Positions 20,143 to 26,873 of a stretch of DNA of 64,000 bases are shown here, one piece after another; position 1 is the stretch's first letter, and each line of letters starts with the position of its first letter. Origin of the DNA: Methanofollis fontis (GTDB taxonomy: Archaea > Halobacteriota > Methanomicrobia > Methanomicrobiales > Methanofollaceae); assembly GCF_004297185.1 (NCBI RefSeq), contig NZ_PGCL01000002.1, positions 372,001 to 436,000 on the forward strand, given 5' to 3'. The notes beneath the pieces are model-generated. The model was not told the origin of the DNA and searched no databases. It saw only the letters and a program-made list of their open reading frames with translations. A program made the position numbers and the translations under genes.

Positions 20143-21102
20143 ATGGGCATGGGATCAGGTTTCTACGCATTTGACGCTATCGATGACGCCATTTCCCGTA
20201 CCAAAACCCTTCTCTGGCCGTTCAGGGCCGGGGTGTGGTTCAGGCTGGCGTTGATCGCCCTGTTTGTCGGGGGGTTTGGCGGCGGATTCAATATCTTCTC
20301 CTATAATCTGGATTCCGGTCCGGACATGGGGATGCCGCTCGATCCGGGGGTTTCGATGGCCCTGGTTCTGGCGCTTATCGGGATCGTTCTCCTGCTGGCG
20401 CTGATCTTCCTGATGATCGGATCGATCCTGCAGTTTGTATTCGTCGACTGCCTGTCCTCAGGCACGGTCTCCCTCTCCCGCACCTTCGGGCTCAGGAGTG
20501 GTAAGGGGCTGCGCCTCTTTCTCTTCCAGTTTGGTCTCATGCTGCTGATATTCGCCGCCATTGCCCTGCTTGCATTGATCCTCATCTTTCCGGCCGGGAT
20601 GACAGGGACGCCCAATGTGGTGTTCTTCCTTCTGATGCTCCCGGTGCTGCTGGTGCTCGCCATCATTGTCGGAGTGGTGATGATGCTCACCATCGATTTC
20701 GTGGTGCCGGTGATGATCCGGGACGATTGCGGAGTCATCACCGGATGGCGCCGGGTGTGGGGATTCGTGCGGGCGGACCTGAAGAACACTGCCGTCTATG
20801 TGGTCTTCAAGTTCGTTCTCGGCATTGTGGTGGGCCTGATCGTGCTCCTTCTCGCCCTGCTTGTGCTTGCGGTGATCGCCGTCCCGCTGCTCGTTGTGGG
20901 TGCGGCGGCGATGTACATCATGAATGGTGCGGTCCTGCCGTTCTACCTGCTGCTCCTTGGCATCGGGGTGCTCATCGCCATCCCGTTCCTCCTTCTCGTT
21001 CAGGTGCCCTTCGTCACCTTCTTCAGGTACTATTCCCTGGGTGTGCTCTCGTCCTTCACGCCCGACTACGACCTCCTCCCTCCCGGAGAGGCATCGGCCT
21101 GA
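20143..21102 (+). CDS. Multi-pass membrane protein of unknown function
   Basis: 319 residues with about six hydrophobic segments, including a start-proximal one (FRLALIALFVGGFGGGF), MALVLALIGIVLLLALIFLMIG, and four more up to residue 300. Between them lie short soluble loops such as CLSSGTVSLSRTFGLRSGKGLRLF and RDDCGVITGWRRVWGFVRADLKN, the second typical of membrane proteins annotated as glycerophosphodiesterase-like membrane domain or DUF7544 family. No catalytic motif is evident. It lies 45 bases before trkH on the same strand, so it may be co-transcribed. An ATG at 20149 is an alternative start. Confidence 0.7.
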   Translation: MGMGSGFYAFDAIDDAISRTKTLLWPFRAGVWFRLALIALFVGGFGGGFNIFSYNLDSGPDMGMPLDPGVSMALVLALIGIVLLLALIFLMIGSILQFVFVDCLSSGTVSLSRTFGLRSGKGLRLFLFQFGLMLLIFAAIALLALILIFPAGMTGTPNVVFFLLMLPVLLVLAIIVGVVMMLTIDFVVPVMIRDDCGVITGWRRVWGFVRADLKNTAVYVVFKFVLGIVVGLIVLLLALLVLAVIAVPLLVVGAAAMYIMNGAVLPFYLLLLGIGVLIAIPFLLLVQVPFVTFFRYYSLGVLSSFTPDYDLLPPGEASA

Positions 21103-21147
21103 GGGTGGTGAAGGTTATCTATGTCCCGGGCCCATAGGGGGTCCGGG

Positions 21148-22584
21148 ATGTATGAACTCGTCTCTCCGGTCTCTTTGCCGGCGGTGCTGCGATATTGCGG
21201 CGGCACCTTCGTCGGCATCGGGATCGTCCTCCTTGTGCCGGCGGCTGCCGCAGTCTTCTTCGGGGAGACGGCGGCGGGCATGGCGGCGCTGGGGTGTGCC
21301 CTGCTCTCGTTTGCCGCAGGCGCCGCTCTCCTCCGGCATTTTCCAGAGACCGATCTCGAGTGGAAGGAGGCGCTGGTGCTTGCCGCCATCGCCTTTCCTG
21401 CCGCCTCCCTTCTCTGCACTCTGCCGCTTTCCCTTTCCTCCGGGATGAATGGTATCGACGCTTTTTTTGAGTCGGTCTCCGGCCTGACCACGACCGGTCT
21501 CTCGGTCGCCCCCGTGGGAGTGCCGGCATTTTTCCTGTTCTTCCGTTCCTGGCTCCAGTGGGTGGGGGGGATCGGTATCGTGGTGCTGGTGCTCACCTTC
21601 GTCGTCGGGCCGGGGACGAGCGCCCTGCGCCTCTATACTGCCTCGATCGGCGACGAAGAACGGCTCCGCCCGACGATTGGCGCCACCGTGCGTCTGCTCT
21701 TCTCCGTCTATCTGGCGCTGACGGTCGTCGCCTTCCTGTTGCTTCTGTTCGGTGGGATGGAGCCCTTCGATGCCCTCTGTCATGCATTGAGCGGGATATC
21801 GACCGGTGGCTTTTCCACGCGCCCCGAGAGCGTTGCGGCCTTCGGGGGGGTGCTGCCCGCCCTGGTGATCCTCTCCTCCCTGATGGGCGCCGTCAGTATC
21901 GGTCTCTACCCAGCACTCCTGAAGGATCCGCTCCGTCTTCTGAGCGATATCCAGGTGCAGGTGTTTGCCGTGATCGCTGTCGCCGGTTTTGTGCTGCTCC
22001 TGTTTATCCTGGGCGGTGCCATGCCGCTCCCCGAAGCCGTTCCGGTTGCGGCGTTTCAGGTGCTCTCGGCCCTGACCACCTCCGGGTTCTCGACGATCGA
22101 TATCGGTGCCCTCCCGCCTCCGGCAAAGGCGGTGCTCTCCCTGCTGATGTGCATCGGGGGTTCGATCGGATCGACGGCGGGCGGGATCAAGATCCTCCGC
22201 CTTATCCTCGTGCTTGCGCTGATCCGCTACATCTTTCTCCGCTTCTCCCTCCCGAGGGAGGCGGTGGTCCCCTTCCGGGTGGGCGGGCACCTGATGGAAT
22301 GGCCGGATGTCTATGCCGTCGTCGGGTTCATATTCTGCTATATCGGCTGCATTATCCTCTCGGCGCTGGTGTTCATGCTCGCCGGCGCCGGCATGGAGGA
22401 TGCCGTCTTCGAGGTGGCAAGCGCCCTTGGCACCGTGGGGCTTTCGACCGGGCTGACCGGGCCAGACCTTCCCGTGCTGCTGAAAGCGGTGCTCTGCATC
22501 GATATGTTGATGGGCCGGATCGAGGTGATGCCCTTCCTGGTGATGTTCATGCCCAGGACATGGATCCGCCCTGGGAGGGATTGA
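21148..22584 (+). CDS. trkH: Trk-type potassium uptake protein TrkH
   Basis: The membrane channel subunit for K+ uptake. Four selectivity-filter-like repeats are readable: SGLTTTGLS, SGISTGGFS, SALTTSGFS and SALGTVGLS, each followed by membrane helices, in the MPM-repeat layout of TrkH/KtrB. About 478 residues. I take the ATG at 21148 because a G-rich site (GGGGTCCGGG) is directly upstream; an ATG 27 bases earlier is in frame. It is followed 34 bases later by trkA, the regulatory partner. Confidence 0.95.
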   Translation: MYELVSPVSLPAVLRYCGGTFVGIGIVLLVPAAAAVFFGETAAGMAALGCALLSFAAGAALLRHFPETDLEWKEALVLAAIAFPAASLLCTLPLSLSSGMNGIDAFFESVSGLTTTGLSVAPVGVPAFFLFFRSWLQWVGGIGIVVLVLTFVVGPGTSALRLYTASIGDEERLRPTIGATVRLLFSVYLALTVVAFLLLLFGGMEPFDALCHALSGISTGGFSTRPESVAAFGGVLPALVILSSLMGAVSIGLYPALLKDPLRLLSDIQVQVFAVIAVAGFVLLLFILGGAMPLPEAVPVAAFQVLSALTTSGFSTIDIGALPPPAKAVLSLLMCIGGSIGSTAGGIKILRLILVLALIRYIFLRFSLPREAVVPFRVGGHLMEWPDVYAVVGFIFCYIGCIILSALVFMLAGAGMEDAVFEVASALGTVGLSTGLTGPDLPVLLKAVLCIDMLMGRIEVMPFLVMFMPRTWIRPGRD

Positions 22585-22618
22585 TACGTGTGCACGTCCA
22601 TCAGCGGTGTGATCAGGT

Positions 22619-23278
22619 ATGCGGGTGATCATTGTCGGGGCGAGCACGCTCGGGCGCGGGCTTGCGGAGAAGCTGATCGGGCTCGGCACCCAGGTGGTGG
22701 TGGTCGAGCGGGACGGGGAGCGGGCGGAGGACATTGCGGAGAACCTGGACTGTTCGGTGATCCACGGCGAGGGGACCAGGCCCGACATCCTGGATAAGGC
22801 AGGAATTGAGGATGCGGATGCGGTGGTGGCGTGCACTGACCACGACCAGGACAACATCCTGATCGGGCTGATCGCCCGCGGCGCCGGGGTGCGGGAGACA
22901 ATTTTACGGACGGACGATGCCCAGTTTCTCGTTGTGGCCAAGAGACTCGGGTTTCATCATGTGCTCAACCCGCCGCAGGCGACGGCGGAGATCATCGCCG
23001 ATGCCCTGCGCGGGGTGGACACCATCGAACTCTCCACGCTGGTGCGCGGCGACATCCGTTTTCTCGGTGTGATCGCCCGGGGAGAGGTGGTGGGAAAACG
23101 AATTTCCGAGGTTATAATGCCAAAACAATCCTCGATTGTCGGGATGTACCGGGGGCAGGAGTTCCTGTTTGCCGCGGCCGATCCCGCCATCGAGGAGGGT
23201 GATGAGGTGCTTGTCGTCACCGCCGAGGAGCATTCCGGAGAGATCGATGCCCTCCTCACGACCCCTGCCCCTGGATAA
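22619..23278 (+). CDS. trkA: Trk potassium system regulatory protein TrkA
   Basis: A peripheral nucleotide-binding subunit that gates TrkH. The 219 residues contain one RCK_N Rossmann domain (MRVIIVGASTLGRGLAEKL, with an acidic residue in VVVVERD) and one RCK_C domain at about 135-215 (DIRFLGVIARGEVVGKRISE... EGDEVLVVTAEEH). This is the single-module form found in many archaea, half the size of E. coli TrkA. Directly downstream of trkH. Confidence 0.95.
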   Translation: MRVIIVGASTLGRGLAEKLIGLGTQVVVVERDGERAEDIAENLDCSVIHGEGTRPDILDKAGIEDADAVVACTDHDQDNILIGLIARGAGVRETILRTDDAQFLVVAKRLGFHHVLNPPQATAEIIADALRGVDTIELSTLVRGDIRFLGVIARGEVVGKRISEVIMPKQSSIVGMYRGQEFLFAAADPAIEEGDEVLVVTAEEHSGEIDALLTTPAPG

Positions 23279-23328: not shown

Positions 23329-23400
23329 GCGCCGATAGTGTAGTGGTCATCACTAGGCGTTGCCAACGCCTAAACCCGGGTTCGAGTCCCGGTCGGCGCA
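23329..23400 (+). tRNA. tRNA-Gly (anticodon GCC)
   Basis: A full cloverleaf can be folded by eye. The acceptor arms GCGCCGA (23329-23335) and TCGGCGC (23393-23399) pair in all seven positions. The D arm closes with GTG/CAC. The anticodon stem AGGCG/CGCCT encloses loop TTGCCAA, giving anticodon GCC at 23362-23364 and decoding GGC. The T arm CCGGG-TTCGAGT-CCCGG is perfect. The discriminator base is A23400. CCA is not encoded and no intron is visible. It marks the left edge of the AT-rich island. Confidence 0.97.
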
Positions 23401-23408
23401 CTCAGAAC

Positions 23409-23425
23409 ACAGGTTCGATTCCTGT
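23409..23425 (+). other. Orphan T-arm-like sequence, possible tRNA remnant
   Basis: ACAGG-TTCGATT-CCTGT forms a perfect five-pair T-stem and seven-base T-loop with the invariant TTC and A, nine bases after tRNA-Gly. No acceptor, D or anticodon arm accompanies it. It may be the 3' remnant of a second tRNA lost or displaced by an insertion, or a chance hairpin acting with the following T tract as terminator. Confidence 0.4.
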
Positions 23426-23428
23426 ATC

Positions 23429-23435
23429 TTTTTTT
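23429..23435 (+). terminator. T7 tract after tRNA-Gly
   Basis: Seven T residues follow the T-arm-like hairpin and would end the tRNA transcript in the archaeal manner. Confidence 0.55.
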
Positions 23436-23903
23436 CGCGCATCTTCAGAAATATTGACGCTTCCGCCTCTGACAGATTCCTCTTTTCACGGTGTTCGCCA
23501 TCTATACGCATGGCGTTCTATCGCGCATGCCATATCCGGAGAGCAGATCGCCGACGGGGTGTGGGGGGCGCTGAATAATGCGATGATCCGGGGGCGGAGT
23601 GGCCATCGGGGGGCGTGGCACAACGAACTGATATCAGGTGATGTCAGGCGCTTGAACAGATTTCAATCAGGGGTGTTGCGGGGGTTGGGATCTCGGGGGT
23701 CCGGGCACCAGTTTGGACAACACGATAGAAGGGTGATTTCAAAGACGGGTAATGACATTTTGCCACCTTTGAAGAGCCCTCATAATGGCTTTTGAATAGA
23801 ATTGGCAGTTGAAACCCACTCAAATGCTTCTCCTTGTCGCCAAATATGATCCAAAATTCTAGAGAAATATTGACCGATCAAAACGATTGGTTAAATTATG
23901 CTG
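23436..23903. other. Gene-poor boundary of the island
   Basis: About 470 bases without a convincing gene. Base composition changes from G+C-rich (to about 23710) to AT-rich (after about 23730), which marks the approximate island edge. Open frames here lack ribosome sites and recognisable protein sequence. No integrase, insertion sequence or direct copy of the tRNA 3' end was seen. Confidence 0.5.
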
Positions 23904-24350
23904 TTAATGATTATGCATGGCTGTTTTTACCATTGTGCTAAATATTGTTTCAAATTTGGTAGAATAAGGAGCATCACTATGTGGGGTATGATGGCAATAC
24001 ATGGTGCCATTATTATCGATGCTCATAAGACCAATATTTGATCTTGAGAACCGTTCTGTCTGTGATAAAGCAGATTTAACATGGTCGTGATCCATAATCA
24101 CGTAAGACTGATTAACAAATGCCTTGTAGCGAAAAGCTTGAATAAGCGCTCTTTTCCAGTTTGTTAGCTTCGCTTCAAATGCATAGGAGATCATTTTTTC
24201 ATTATCATTTTTTACAACTACGATATCAGGAATACCAAATAGACCTTTAACTTCTTCTTTAACAAGGCTCGGGCCAGGACTAGTTAGATCTCTTATATAA
24301 TCACTTTTTATGATGATCTCAACCATTTCTTTTTCGCTTGTAAAGGCCAT
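23904..24350 (-). CDS. Small PD-(D/E)XK nuclease-fold protein
   Basis: 148 residues with the layout of a single-domain restriction-endonuclease-like fold. It has a leading helix with Glu32-Glu33, the motif Pro41-Asp42 on a strand (GIPDIVVV), and E59-A60-K61 on the next strand (YAFEAKL). A helix with Q71 and a basic patch follows (RALIQAFRYKAFVNQSYVIMD). This order, E...PD...ExK...QxxxY, is typical of metal-dependent nucleases of the PD-(D/E)XK superfamily. Start: the ATG at 24350 lies one base after the upstream stop, with GGATGGAG ahead of it; earlier in-frame ATGs overlap the previous gene. It is the last gene of the three-gene island operon. The target could be DNA or RNA. Catalytic residues look intact. 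Confidence 0.75.
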   Translation of the reverse strand: MAFTSEKEMVEIIIKSDYIRDLTSPGPSLVKEEVKGLFGIPDIVVVKNDNEKMISYAFEAKLTNWKRALIQAFRYKAFVNQSYVIMDHDHVKSALSQTERFSRSNIGLMSIDNNGTMYCHHTPHSDAPYSTKFETIFSTMVKTAMHNH

Positions 24351-24351
24351 A

Positions 24352-25545
24352 TCATCTGCTCCATCCTTGATCATTCCCAAATAAGTTTGCGACGGTCAAC
24401 CATCCTGAAAGATATGATCCGAATACCCCTAATTCGAAACCAGATTCCCTTAATTTTGAATATTCATCAATTGCTGATGTAATTATATTACAGATTTCAC
24501 AATATCTATCTTCGCTCTCCAAACTACTAATGTTCCTTAATTGTTTTGATCCTTCAATGAAAAAATGCATATAGGGCTCTGGTTTATTAAAATGCCATCC
24601 ATATTTTGGATCGAGTACAAGATCCAAATATTCATTTTGAGCTACAGATTGTATATAACTTGGACATTTTGTATTCATTAATTCAACATAAGGATGTTCA
24701 ATCCAATCAAGTAATTTTGGTATGTACAACCGAGGGGTTGGGGGCCTTTTTATTGTTCTCTCTTCTTGATTAACAAAATTTTTTGAATTGTAAATCCGAG
24801 TGTTCTCAAATGAACCTATTGTAACAATCGAAGGATTGGCCAATGATAGTAGTATCGCCTCTGTATTTAAATAACCAAGAATGACCTTAAGTTCATTTTG
24901 AGATAGTGCGTTTATAAAATTTAACAAATGGTATAAATAATTCCCATCGTTTATTTGCTTATTTCGAGAATCTAACTCTGTTATAAGATAGATTCCAGTT
25001 ATCCCTTCTATTCCAGTAATCCAATTAAGTAGTTCCGAAGAGTAGGTAACGTCTTTGATCATATGGCTATTCAATATTAATTCAACAAATATTTCCTTAC
25101 GACTTCCTGAATTATCAATAGCAGTTAAAAAGGGTGTTATATAATGGTCATTTAGTATCTCGGTATATCTAAAGACTGGTGGCAATTCCCCAGAATACCG
25201 TGTAGGAATTACAAAACATCTGAAATCATTTTGATCTTGAAATGAAACACAATTACTTGCGCAAATTGATGAATAACCGGGATATTGTTCTGTTTCAAAT
25301 CCTCCGGGCATAATTTCACAAGGATAAAAGTCATATGTTGCCATTTTTTTACGAACTGCAAGAGCATTCATCAATTGTGGATCAAAAATCGCTTTCTCTT
25401 TTATGTTATTATCTAATTTTTCAACTTTTGCTTGATCCATACTCCTTGGTGAGATAATCACGCCATCACCAGTGTTATCTTCCAAAATACTCTGAATATT
25501 CCAATTCTCTCTAAATCCGAGTTGATGATAGATTTCAAACCTCAT
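24352..25545 (-). CDS. Large protein of unknown function in the kinase-nuclease operon
   Basis: 397 residues, soluble, with no signal peptide or membrane segment. I do not recognise the family. The first 65 residues contain GDGVIISPRSM and KEKAIFDPQLM. The middle has alternating strands and helices (IFVELILNSHMI; GIYLITELDSR; LKVILGYLNTEAILLSLANPSIVTIGSF) that would suit a TIM-barrel-like core, a weak inference from pattern only. C-terminal cysteines lie in YCEICNII. The start is firm: GGAGGTG stands five bases before the ATG at 25545, and that ATG overlaps the kinase stop as ATGA. The tight coupling to a kinase and a nuclease suggests it is the sensor or effector core of one system. Confidence 0.7.
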   Translation of the reverse strand: MRFEIYHQLGFRENWNIQSILEDNTGDGVIISPRSMDQAKVEKLDNNIKEKAIFDPQLMNALAVRKKMATYDFYPCEIMPGGFETEQYPGYSSICASNCVSFQDQNDFRCFVIPTRYSGELPPVFRYTEILNDHYITPFLTAIDNSGSRKEIFVELILNSHMIKDVTYSSELLNWITGIEGITGIYLITELDSRNKQINDGNYLYHLLNFINALSQNELKVILGYLNTEAILLSLANPSIVTIGSFENTRIYNSKNFVNQEERTIKRPPTPRLYIPKLLDWIEHPYVELMNTKCPSYIQSVAQNEYLDLVLDPKYGWHFNKPEPYMHFFIEGSKQLRNISSLESEDRYCEICNIITSAIDEYSKLRESGFELGVFGSYLSGWLTVANLFGNDQGWSR

Positions 25546-26411
25546 TGATACACCTCCAAACAAGAATCAATTTTATCTAAAATCATATTTGAAAAACGAA
25601 AACGTTGATACGGCTTTGGACTAAGTAATTGCGAAGCTAATGGAAAAATTGGAGACAATACAGGTTCATTAAAAATAGAAGTATACCAGTTTCCATTAAT
25701 AATATTATGTGGAATAGAGTTACCCCCCACAAGACTCGGATCAAATGGGTGAGTGCCCTTCAAAAGTAATTGTACTAAAATTATGCCAAGATTGTATTGG
25801 TCAGTCCTCTTATCGATCCTTTTCTTATCATAGTGTAATTGTTCGGGAGCTGCATATAATTTTGAACAAGGGCCACCCAAGAGCGTTTCTGTTATTGATG
25901 TACTATCCAGACTTCTAGCAATACCTAAGTCAATAATTGTTGGTAAATTGCTTTCCTTAATCAAAATATTATCTGGTTTAAGATCACGATGAACAACATT
26001 CATCTTCCATATTACATTTAACCCTATTACCAGATTTTTAATCAAATTCAATGCTTCAGAGGGTTTTTTAAATGTATCCATACAATGGGATAATGGTGTT
26101 GAGTCAATGAATTCTTCAATGATTATATATCTGCCATCAGGCAATTTTTTAAAACAAAAATTTTTTGGATAATATTGGGAATCAATGTCTTGTAAAATGT
26201 TGATTTCTCTCTCTATTCTTTCAATGTCCCATCCATTCGGGTTATCTGGTGTTTTATATCTGCCAACTTTTAGGGCAACAACCCCATATTCTGGATGGTC
26301 AAAACGATAAACAATTCTTTGACCTCCCTTATAGATCAATTCTGGGTTATTATAATGATCCAGTATGTCGCGACATTGTTCTTCTTCCAATTTTAACACC
26401 TGATCAGACAA
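25542..26411 (-). CDS. Eukaryotic-type Ser/Thr protein kinase
   Basis: 289 residues, a stand-alone kinase domain with no membrane anchor. It has a glycine-loop-like GGQRIVY (29-35), the ATP lysine K48 in VALKVG, and a candidate helix-C Glu (E69). The catalytic loop HRDLKPDN (141-148) is complete. The metal motif is D161-L-G (DLG rather than DFG), and APE lies at 188-190. All residues needed for phosphotransfer appear present, so it should be active. It begins the island operon and its stop overlaps the next start. The start given is TTG at 26411; a GTG at 26399 is an alternative and neither has a convincing ribosome site. In bacteria and archaea such kinases occur in stress signalling and in several phage-defence systems. 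Confidence 0.9.
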   Translation of the reverse strand: MSDQVLKLEEEQCRDILDHYNNPELIYKGGQRIVYRFDHPEYGVVALKVGRYKTPDNPNGWDIERIEREINILQDIDSQYYPKNFCFKKLPDGRYIIIEEFIDSTPLSHCMDTFKKPSEALNLIKNLVIGLNVIWKMNVVHRDLKPDNILIKESNLPTIIDLGIARSLDSTSITETLLGGPCSKLYAAPEQLHYDKKRIDKRTDQYNLGIILVQLLLKGTHPFDPSLVGGNSIPHNIINGNWYTSIFNEPVLSPIFPLASQLLSPKPYQRFRFSNMILDKIDSCLEVYQ

Positions 26412-26429
26412 ATAATGATATCCACAATG

Positions 26430-26465
26430 TTACTATGATCTATAGAAAACAGATAATATTTACGA
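26430..26465 (-). promoter_or_regulatory. AT-rich promoter candidate of the island operon
   Basis: On the minus strand, taaatattatc and ctatagatc lie 20-55 nt before the kinase start and resemble archaeal TATA boxes. In this AT-rich DNA such matches are expected by chance, so support is weak. Confidence 0.3.
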
Positions 26466-26648
26466 TTTGATTTCCTGAACTGCCCTTCAATATTCTCCAA
26501 ACCGTCACTTTGCTCGCCAATGCCCCCCCAAATCTGAAAAACCCACATTTCCCCCTCTTCATCGTTCTCCCCCGCTACCTGGACCTCCCTCCCACCCCCC
26601 AGCACAAAACCGCAACCGACAAAAGTGAAGCAGGAGAGAGGGGTAATC

Positions 26649-26873
26649 ATGGACGTCTCGATCCCCCAGCTCCGCGACCTCCTCTTCCCGATGGAATGGT
26701 TCGTCCGCTTCTATATTCTGGCCTTCATCGTCTGGCTCGCAGAACCGATGTATCCTGGCAGCCAGTTCTCCTACCTGCTCCTGATCTACTTCCTCTGGTT
26801 CGTCATGGCGATCACCTTCGCCTGGCAGGTGATCGTCACGGTGCGGTTTGTCAGAGACCACCGCCGGGAGTGA
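26649..26873 (+). CDS. Small two-helix membrane protein
   Basis: 74 residues with two hydrophobic segments, WFVRFYILAFIVWLAEPMY and FSYLLLIYFLWFVMAITFAWQV, and a basic tail ending RDHRRE. The ATG at 26649 has GGGG five bases upstream. G+C-rich codon use differs from the neighbouring island, so it belongs to the core side or to a different insert. Function unknown; it has no partner gene on its strand. Confidence 0.6.
   Translation: MDVSIPQLRDLLFPMEWFVRFYILAFIVWLAEPMYPGSQFSYLLLIYFLWFVMAITFAWQVIVTVRFVRDHRRE

Follow-up and report, generated by a model that had tools for sequence, protein, structure and literature searches.

The window, a 64,000-nucleotide stretch of Methanofollis fontis contig NZ_PGCL01000002.1, carries three minus-strand genes that we call KIN, MID, and NUC, inserted in low-G+C DNA next to a tRNA-Gly gene (Table 1). 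Their reading as one coupled operon in the original prediction agrees with the sequence in each detail: all the open reading frames (ORFs) are present, the kinase stop and the MID ATG overlap by four bases (ATGA, 25542-25545), GGAGGTG precedes that ATG by 5 nt, and one base separates the end of MID at 24352 from the NUC ATG at 24350. Alternative starts are available to NUC, at a TTG (24380) that gives a longer protein whose gene overlaps MID, and to the kinase, at a GTG (26399) four codons into its ORF. The compositional claim also holds, the trio having 33.6% G+C against 59.8% in the rest of the window and lying directly after the tRNA gene.

Table 1. Features of the trio locus in the window and phosphatase genes at haloarchaeal loci
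Feature	Sequence	Coordinates	Strand	Basis or remark
KIN, Ser/Thr protein kinase, 289 aa	window	25542..26411	-	Pfam Pkinase match; TTG start at 26411
MID, 397 aa, no named family; probable distant TGT-superfamily TIM barrel	window	24352..25545	-	hhalign; zinc motif in three bacterial homologues
NUC, putative PD-(D/E)XK nuclease, 148 aa	window	23904..24350	-	ATG start; catalytic pattern; weak sce7726 match
Shine-Dalgarno GGAGGTG for MID, inside end of kinase gene	window	25551..25557	-	sequence
tRNA-Gly(gcc), borders insert	window	23329..23401	+	ARAGORN and Rfam
Approximate insert, tRNA-Gly to ORF at 26649	window	23402..26648	.	tblastn and blastn against relatives L067, L068
Metallophosphoesterase	L010	5612-6298
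Metallophosphoesterase	L022	3928-4614
Metallophosphoesterase	L023	8174-8863
Metallophosphoesterase	L024	8481-9167
Metallophosphoesterase	L025	9010-9696
Metallophosphoesterase	L026	10134-10862

Comparison with two same-genus relatives (G002 and G004) reveals an empty site: the tRNA-Gly gene and the orthologue of the small ORF at 26649 are 207 and 372 bp apart, compared with 3.2 kb in the window, and the aminotransferase orthologue comes after that of the small ORF in both. We therefore place the insertion of the trio at the 3' side of the tRNA-Gly gene and regard the trio as horizontally acquired; its loss from both relatives is less likely. Neither an integrase with the insert nor a perfect tRNA-end repeat at its far side was found. 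Just past the tRNA-Gly gene, ACACAGGTTCGATTCCTGTATCTTTTTTT (window 23408-23436) resembles a stray T-arm of a tRNA with a run of T; it was not found in the other sequences compared, and integration may have left it behind as a scar. On the other side of the tRNA, a TrkH/TrkA-like potassium uptake pair (21121-23278) separates tRNA-Gly from the membrane-protein gene at 20143 in the window; the two relatives have only ~350 bp there, implying a second gain or loss at this junction.

Coupling in a single genome is weak evidence, and we consider the trio more than a chance arrangement because all three genes recur elsewhere. Searches with MID and then NUC identified 14 further loci encoding KIN, MID, and NUC, in two methanogen-type archaea, in eight haloarchaea, and on plasmids of Polaromonas, Priestia, Arthrobacter, and Kineococcus; MID queries led to 12 of these, and a NUC query to the other two (Priestia and Arthrobacter). 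Recurrence in other genomes, on which the original prediction staked itself, is thus complete, the three genes co-occurring at all 15 of the 15 loci with a confident MID. With profiles built from the first carriers, kinase, MID, and NUC are adjacent at every archaeal locus, and in one genome (G369) the trio is divided over two contig ends. The MID family is rare. None of the 60 closest relatives sampled has it, and its carriers number 5 of the 394 genomes in the phylum sample (the window's and four others) and 8 of 294 in the haloarchaeal class, two of which are already among those four. A first scan of GTDB contigs for MID gave no match, four MID queries found no relatives in IMG/VR viral contigs, and a search of phage records was empty. 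We also observe a weak MID-like protein (34 bits) on plasmid pGBRO01 of Gordonia bronchialis (L055 5938-7146), with no kinase or NUC recognised nearby; it was excluded from the locus count and may mean that the TGT-like family extends beyond the trio.

The organization of the trio changes between loci, with KIN-MID-NUC and NUC-KIN-MID orders as well as convergent NUC genes. Polaromonas plasmid pPNAP03 has NUC-KIN-MID, Arthrobacter FB24 plasmid 3 and Kineococcus pKRAD01 have KIN-MID with a convergent NUC, and Priestia megaterium p6_CACC119 encodes a kinase-MID fusion of 677 residues (MID domain E 1e-19) with a convergent NUC beside it. At least five loci are plasmid-borne, and the trio is AT-rich relative to its flanks in most. 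Pairwise divergences of KIN, MID, and NUC are correlated (Mantel r 0.89-0.92, 0 of 2000 permutations), and remain so among the haloarchaea alone (Mantel r 0.58-0.70). Without a shared function, the varied gene orders, the fusion, and the joint inheritance would be difficult to account for, and we conclude from these genomic patterns that the trio is a real, mobile unit.

KIN is a Hanks-type kinase (Pfam PF00069, Pkinase, E 2.6e-26). The residues listed in the original prediction are all present in the window, namely K48, HRDLKPDN (D143), DLG (D161), and APE in the kinase and P41-D42, E59-x-K61, and Q71 in NUC. Kinases at all 15 loci have the VAxK lysine and the HRDxKPxN and DxG motifs, and the catalytic HRD, K145, N148, and D161-x-G are retained at 15/15. 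The same holds for the E6, D42, E59-x-K61, and Q71 pattern of NUC, by which NUC is apparently an active PD-(D/E)XK nuclease. Its match to sce7726 (E 5e-4) reaches ~20 bits against an NCBIfam cut-off of 70, and an AlphaFold model from a two-sequence alignment is uninterpretable (mean pLDDT 41.7). Haloarchaeal and several bacterial NUCs have a long insert between D and ExK. The Kineococcus pKRAD01 NUC (L036 7058-7867) carries the annotation of a BadM/Rrf2 transcriptional regulator, which is probably wrong and plausibly stems from a winged-helix-like insert at this position. NUC occurs outside the trio too, as lone NUC-like proteins are found on haloarchaeal plasmids (L032 5992-6756, L033 5839-6828, and L035 5959-6264), the hosts being Natrialba pNMAG03, where the gene lies beside DNA methyltransferases, Halorubrum pR1SE2, and a Natrinema plasmid.

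For the middle protein, the original prediction had raised the prospect of a known housekeeping family; none matched, and MID belongs to no named family, with no sequence match in Pfam, NCBIfam, PADLOC, or the PDB by hmmscan, phmmer, and PDB-profile searches. An exception is the Priestia MID domain, with a marginal match (E 0.017) to archaeosine synthase ArcS, a TGT relative. The Priestia, Arthrobacter, and Kineococcus proteins end in a CxCxxC...H zinc motif, as TGT enzymes also do; the motif is absent from the window MID, the other archaeal MIDs, and the Polaromonas MID. Comparison by hhalign of the three zinc-bearing MIDs with TGT/DpdA-type proteins gives a probability of 88.5% (E 2.7e-6, 194 columns) with the zinc motifs in register, and of the whole MID family 41%, compared with at most 0.5% for reversed sequences and at most 1.4% for the kinase and NUC profiles. 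The position of the TGT nucleophile (FDS/FDC) reads FAS, YST, TIG, or VAT in MID by manual alignment, in which this position is uncertain, so that the nucleophile aspartate has apparently been replaced. Asp55, in an LFDPQ motif, is present in every one of the 14 aligned MID sequences and may correspond to the other conserved TGT aspartate, that of the TDSGSFQ motif. An AlphaFold model of MID from a two-sequence alignment has a mean pLDDT of 45.6, with strands and helices alternating in its better half. Likeness of this model to sugar epimerases was set aside, the matches being to half-barrels (best E 0.004) and the model too poor. Since the structure models are poor, the assignment rests on profile comparison, by which MID is probably a TGT-like TIM barrel.

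A fourth gene accompanies the trio in haloarchaea. Directly after MID, overlapping it or within 30 bases, 6 of the 8 haloarchaeal loci encode a calcineurin-like metallophosphoesterase of ~228 residues (PF12850, E 2e-31; Table 1), which was not recognised at the methanogen, bacterial, or two other haloarchaeal loci. It is likely a fourth component of these versions and could be the eraser to the kinase's writer.

As for the defence islands raised in the original prediction, some loci have defence-type neighbours: a Type IIG restriction enzyme lies near the trio at L023 and a Mrr-type nuclease at L010, and other neighbours match a GajB-type helicase, the PDC candidates S11, S27, and S52 (PDC-S11/S27/S52), and DUF6988 (with PADLOC models among those matched; these are raw matches, many to crude ORF calls). 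DUF6988 is listed among domains newly implicated in defence (PMC13092281). The window and Methanoregula trios have housekeeping neighbours. Downstream, the Polaromonas pPNAP03 trio is followed (L029 13411-20990) by a gene for a UvrD-like helicase along with uncharacterised genes, which together may form a second defence locus. A defence role fits best because the trio combines sparse and horizontal spread, foreign composition, carriage on plasmids, some defence-type neighbours, and an intact nuclease, and we consider it probable that the trio defends against viruses or plasmids.

The plasmids themselves suggest another use, competition or addiction, by which the trio would keep its own element stable or shut out rivals, with no virus-specific role. 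Five of the loci are on plasmids and the genes are mobile and rare, as this would require; however, the window and Methanoregula copies sit in chromosomal housekeeping surroundings, and a three- or four-gene set of kinase, phosphatase, and nuclease is elaborate for an addiction pair, making this explanation unlikely. A role resembling restriction-modification, with MID marking host DNA or RNA by active base exchange, NUC cutting unmarked DNA, and the kinase as regulator, draws on the distant relationship of MID to TGT/DpdA, the possible equivalence of Asp55 to the TDSGSFQ aspartate, and the zinc site retained in three bacterial MIDs. We give it little credence, as the manual alignment finds FAS, YST, TIG, or VAT in place of FDS/FDC, the archaeal and Polaromonas MIDs have lost the zinc ligands, and no 7-deazaguanine pathway gene was recognised at the trio loci. 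Even less probable is a module for signalling and repair under DNA damage or stress, in which KIN would be the sensor and NUC would serve as a processing enzyme: kinase-controlled DNA-damage responses upstream of immune operons are described for CapK (PMC13373217), and an impB/mucB/samB damage-repair gene adjoins the Priestia locus, but sporadic distribution and foreign composition ill suit core repair. That the genes are chance neighbours with separate functions can be practically dismissed, for although kinases are common, as are PD-(D/E)XK nucleases, and haloarchaeal plasmids carry lone NUC-like proteins, recurrence of the trio at 15/15 loci, in differing orders, in archaea and bacteria, and with a gene fusion already contradicts it.

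The explanation that we favour overall, and hold to be reasonably likely, is a mobile defence module in which MID would be the recogniser, the kinase the gate, and NUC the effector. MID would recognise a signal of the invader by binding a nucleic acid or a nucleobase feature with no base exchange, binding being the probable activity given the apparent loss of the TGT nucleophile. KIN would be physically tied to MID, as in the Priestia fusion, and on detection of the ligand would phosphorylate MID, NUC, or itself; phosphorylation would gate the complex and lead NUC to cut the DNA of the invader (or of the cell). In most haloarchaeal versions the calcineurin-like phosphatase would reset the switch. 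This specific chain of TGT-like recogniser, phospho-switch, and nuclease effector is put forward tentatively, as a scheme that we doubt slightly more readily than we believe. If it is correct, archaeal immunity includes a nuclease gated by protein phosphorylation, and archaeal defence offers a kinase-phosphatase switch open to direct testing. About 30% of the G in halovirus HVTV-1 is dPreQ1 (PMC6884629), and it is conceivable, as a long shot, that MID, as a TGT with its catalysis lost, reads 7-deazaguanine bases in viral DNA, which would make the module a modification-dependent restriction system under a phospho-switch. Viruses whose 7-deazaguanines hide them from restriction enzymes would then be recognised through a host protein that descends from the family of enzymes handling these bases, and cut by NUC.

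Among known systems, the KIN domain scores on the PADLOC models of PD-T4-6 (E 7.8e-32) and Stk2, because the kinase fold is common to them and KIN. PD-T4-6 and Stk2 are known as single-kinase systems, whereas KIN is accompanied by MID and NUC at 15/15 loci. Kinase-domain similarity likewise extends to Mad6 of MADS (PADLOC E 1.8e-27); however, KIN reaches 65.6 bits on the NCBIfam MADS6 model, against a cut-off of 460 bits, and no Mad partner gene was recognised.

NERD-type nuclease and Ser/Thr kinase domains occur in defence in PglW of Type-2 BREX and in kinase-bearing DndF (PMC12839542, PMC10853773). The trio resembles them in pairing a nuclease with a Ser/Thr kinase, but PglW and DndF are large multidomain proteins in BREX or Dnd operons, whereas the trio consists of three small genes, with a different nuclease family and a protein that is probably TGT-like. 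None of KIN, MID, and NUC is one of the Type-2 BREX set (PglX, PglZ, BrxC, and PglW), and in the window no member of that set adjoins the trio, nor do its immediate neighbours include a recognised BREX or Dnd core gene. A TGT homologue takes part in DNA-centred defence in the Dpd system of 7-deazaguanine DNA modification-restriction and in BREX-related capture (BRC) systems (PMC12839542). Unlike the trio, Dpd is built from many more parts and its DpdA is active, and BRC combines a recognisable TGT with HerA, PglZ, and GNAT. By hmmscan, MID has no match among TGT or DpdA models, and it apparently has no nucleophile; the descriptions of these systems in PMC12839542 mention no protein kinase. The sce7725/sce7726 pair of mobile elements is reported together in an integrative element (PMC9394441), and NUC has a marginal sce7726 match (E 5e-4), but at 20 versus 70 bits, with no sce7725 match for MID and no kinase reported with the pair (PMC9394441).

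As the original prediction had supposed, the three-part set thus matches no described system in the libraries and open-access literature searched, and in that literature, which takes in few preprints, we found no description of a kinase, TGT-like protein, and nuclease set. Every known system compared failed as a home for the trio, so we regard the trio as new as a set and, on sequence comparison, as a probably undescribed kind of system whose kinase and nuclease belong to known superfamilies. If this is right, it is a compact kinase-controlled system found across archaea and bacteria, small enough for direct cloning at three genes and about 2.5 kb, and set apart from the systems above by a central protein of no named family, seemingly a repurposed base-exchange enzyme.
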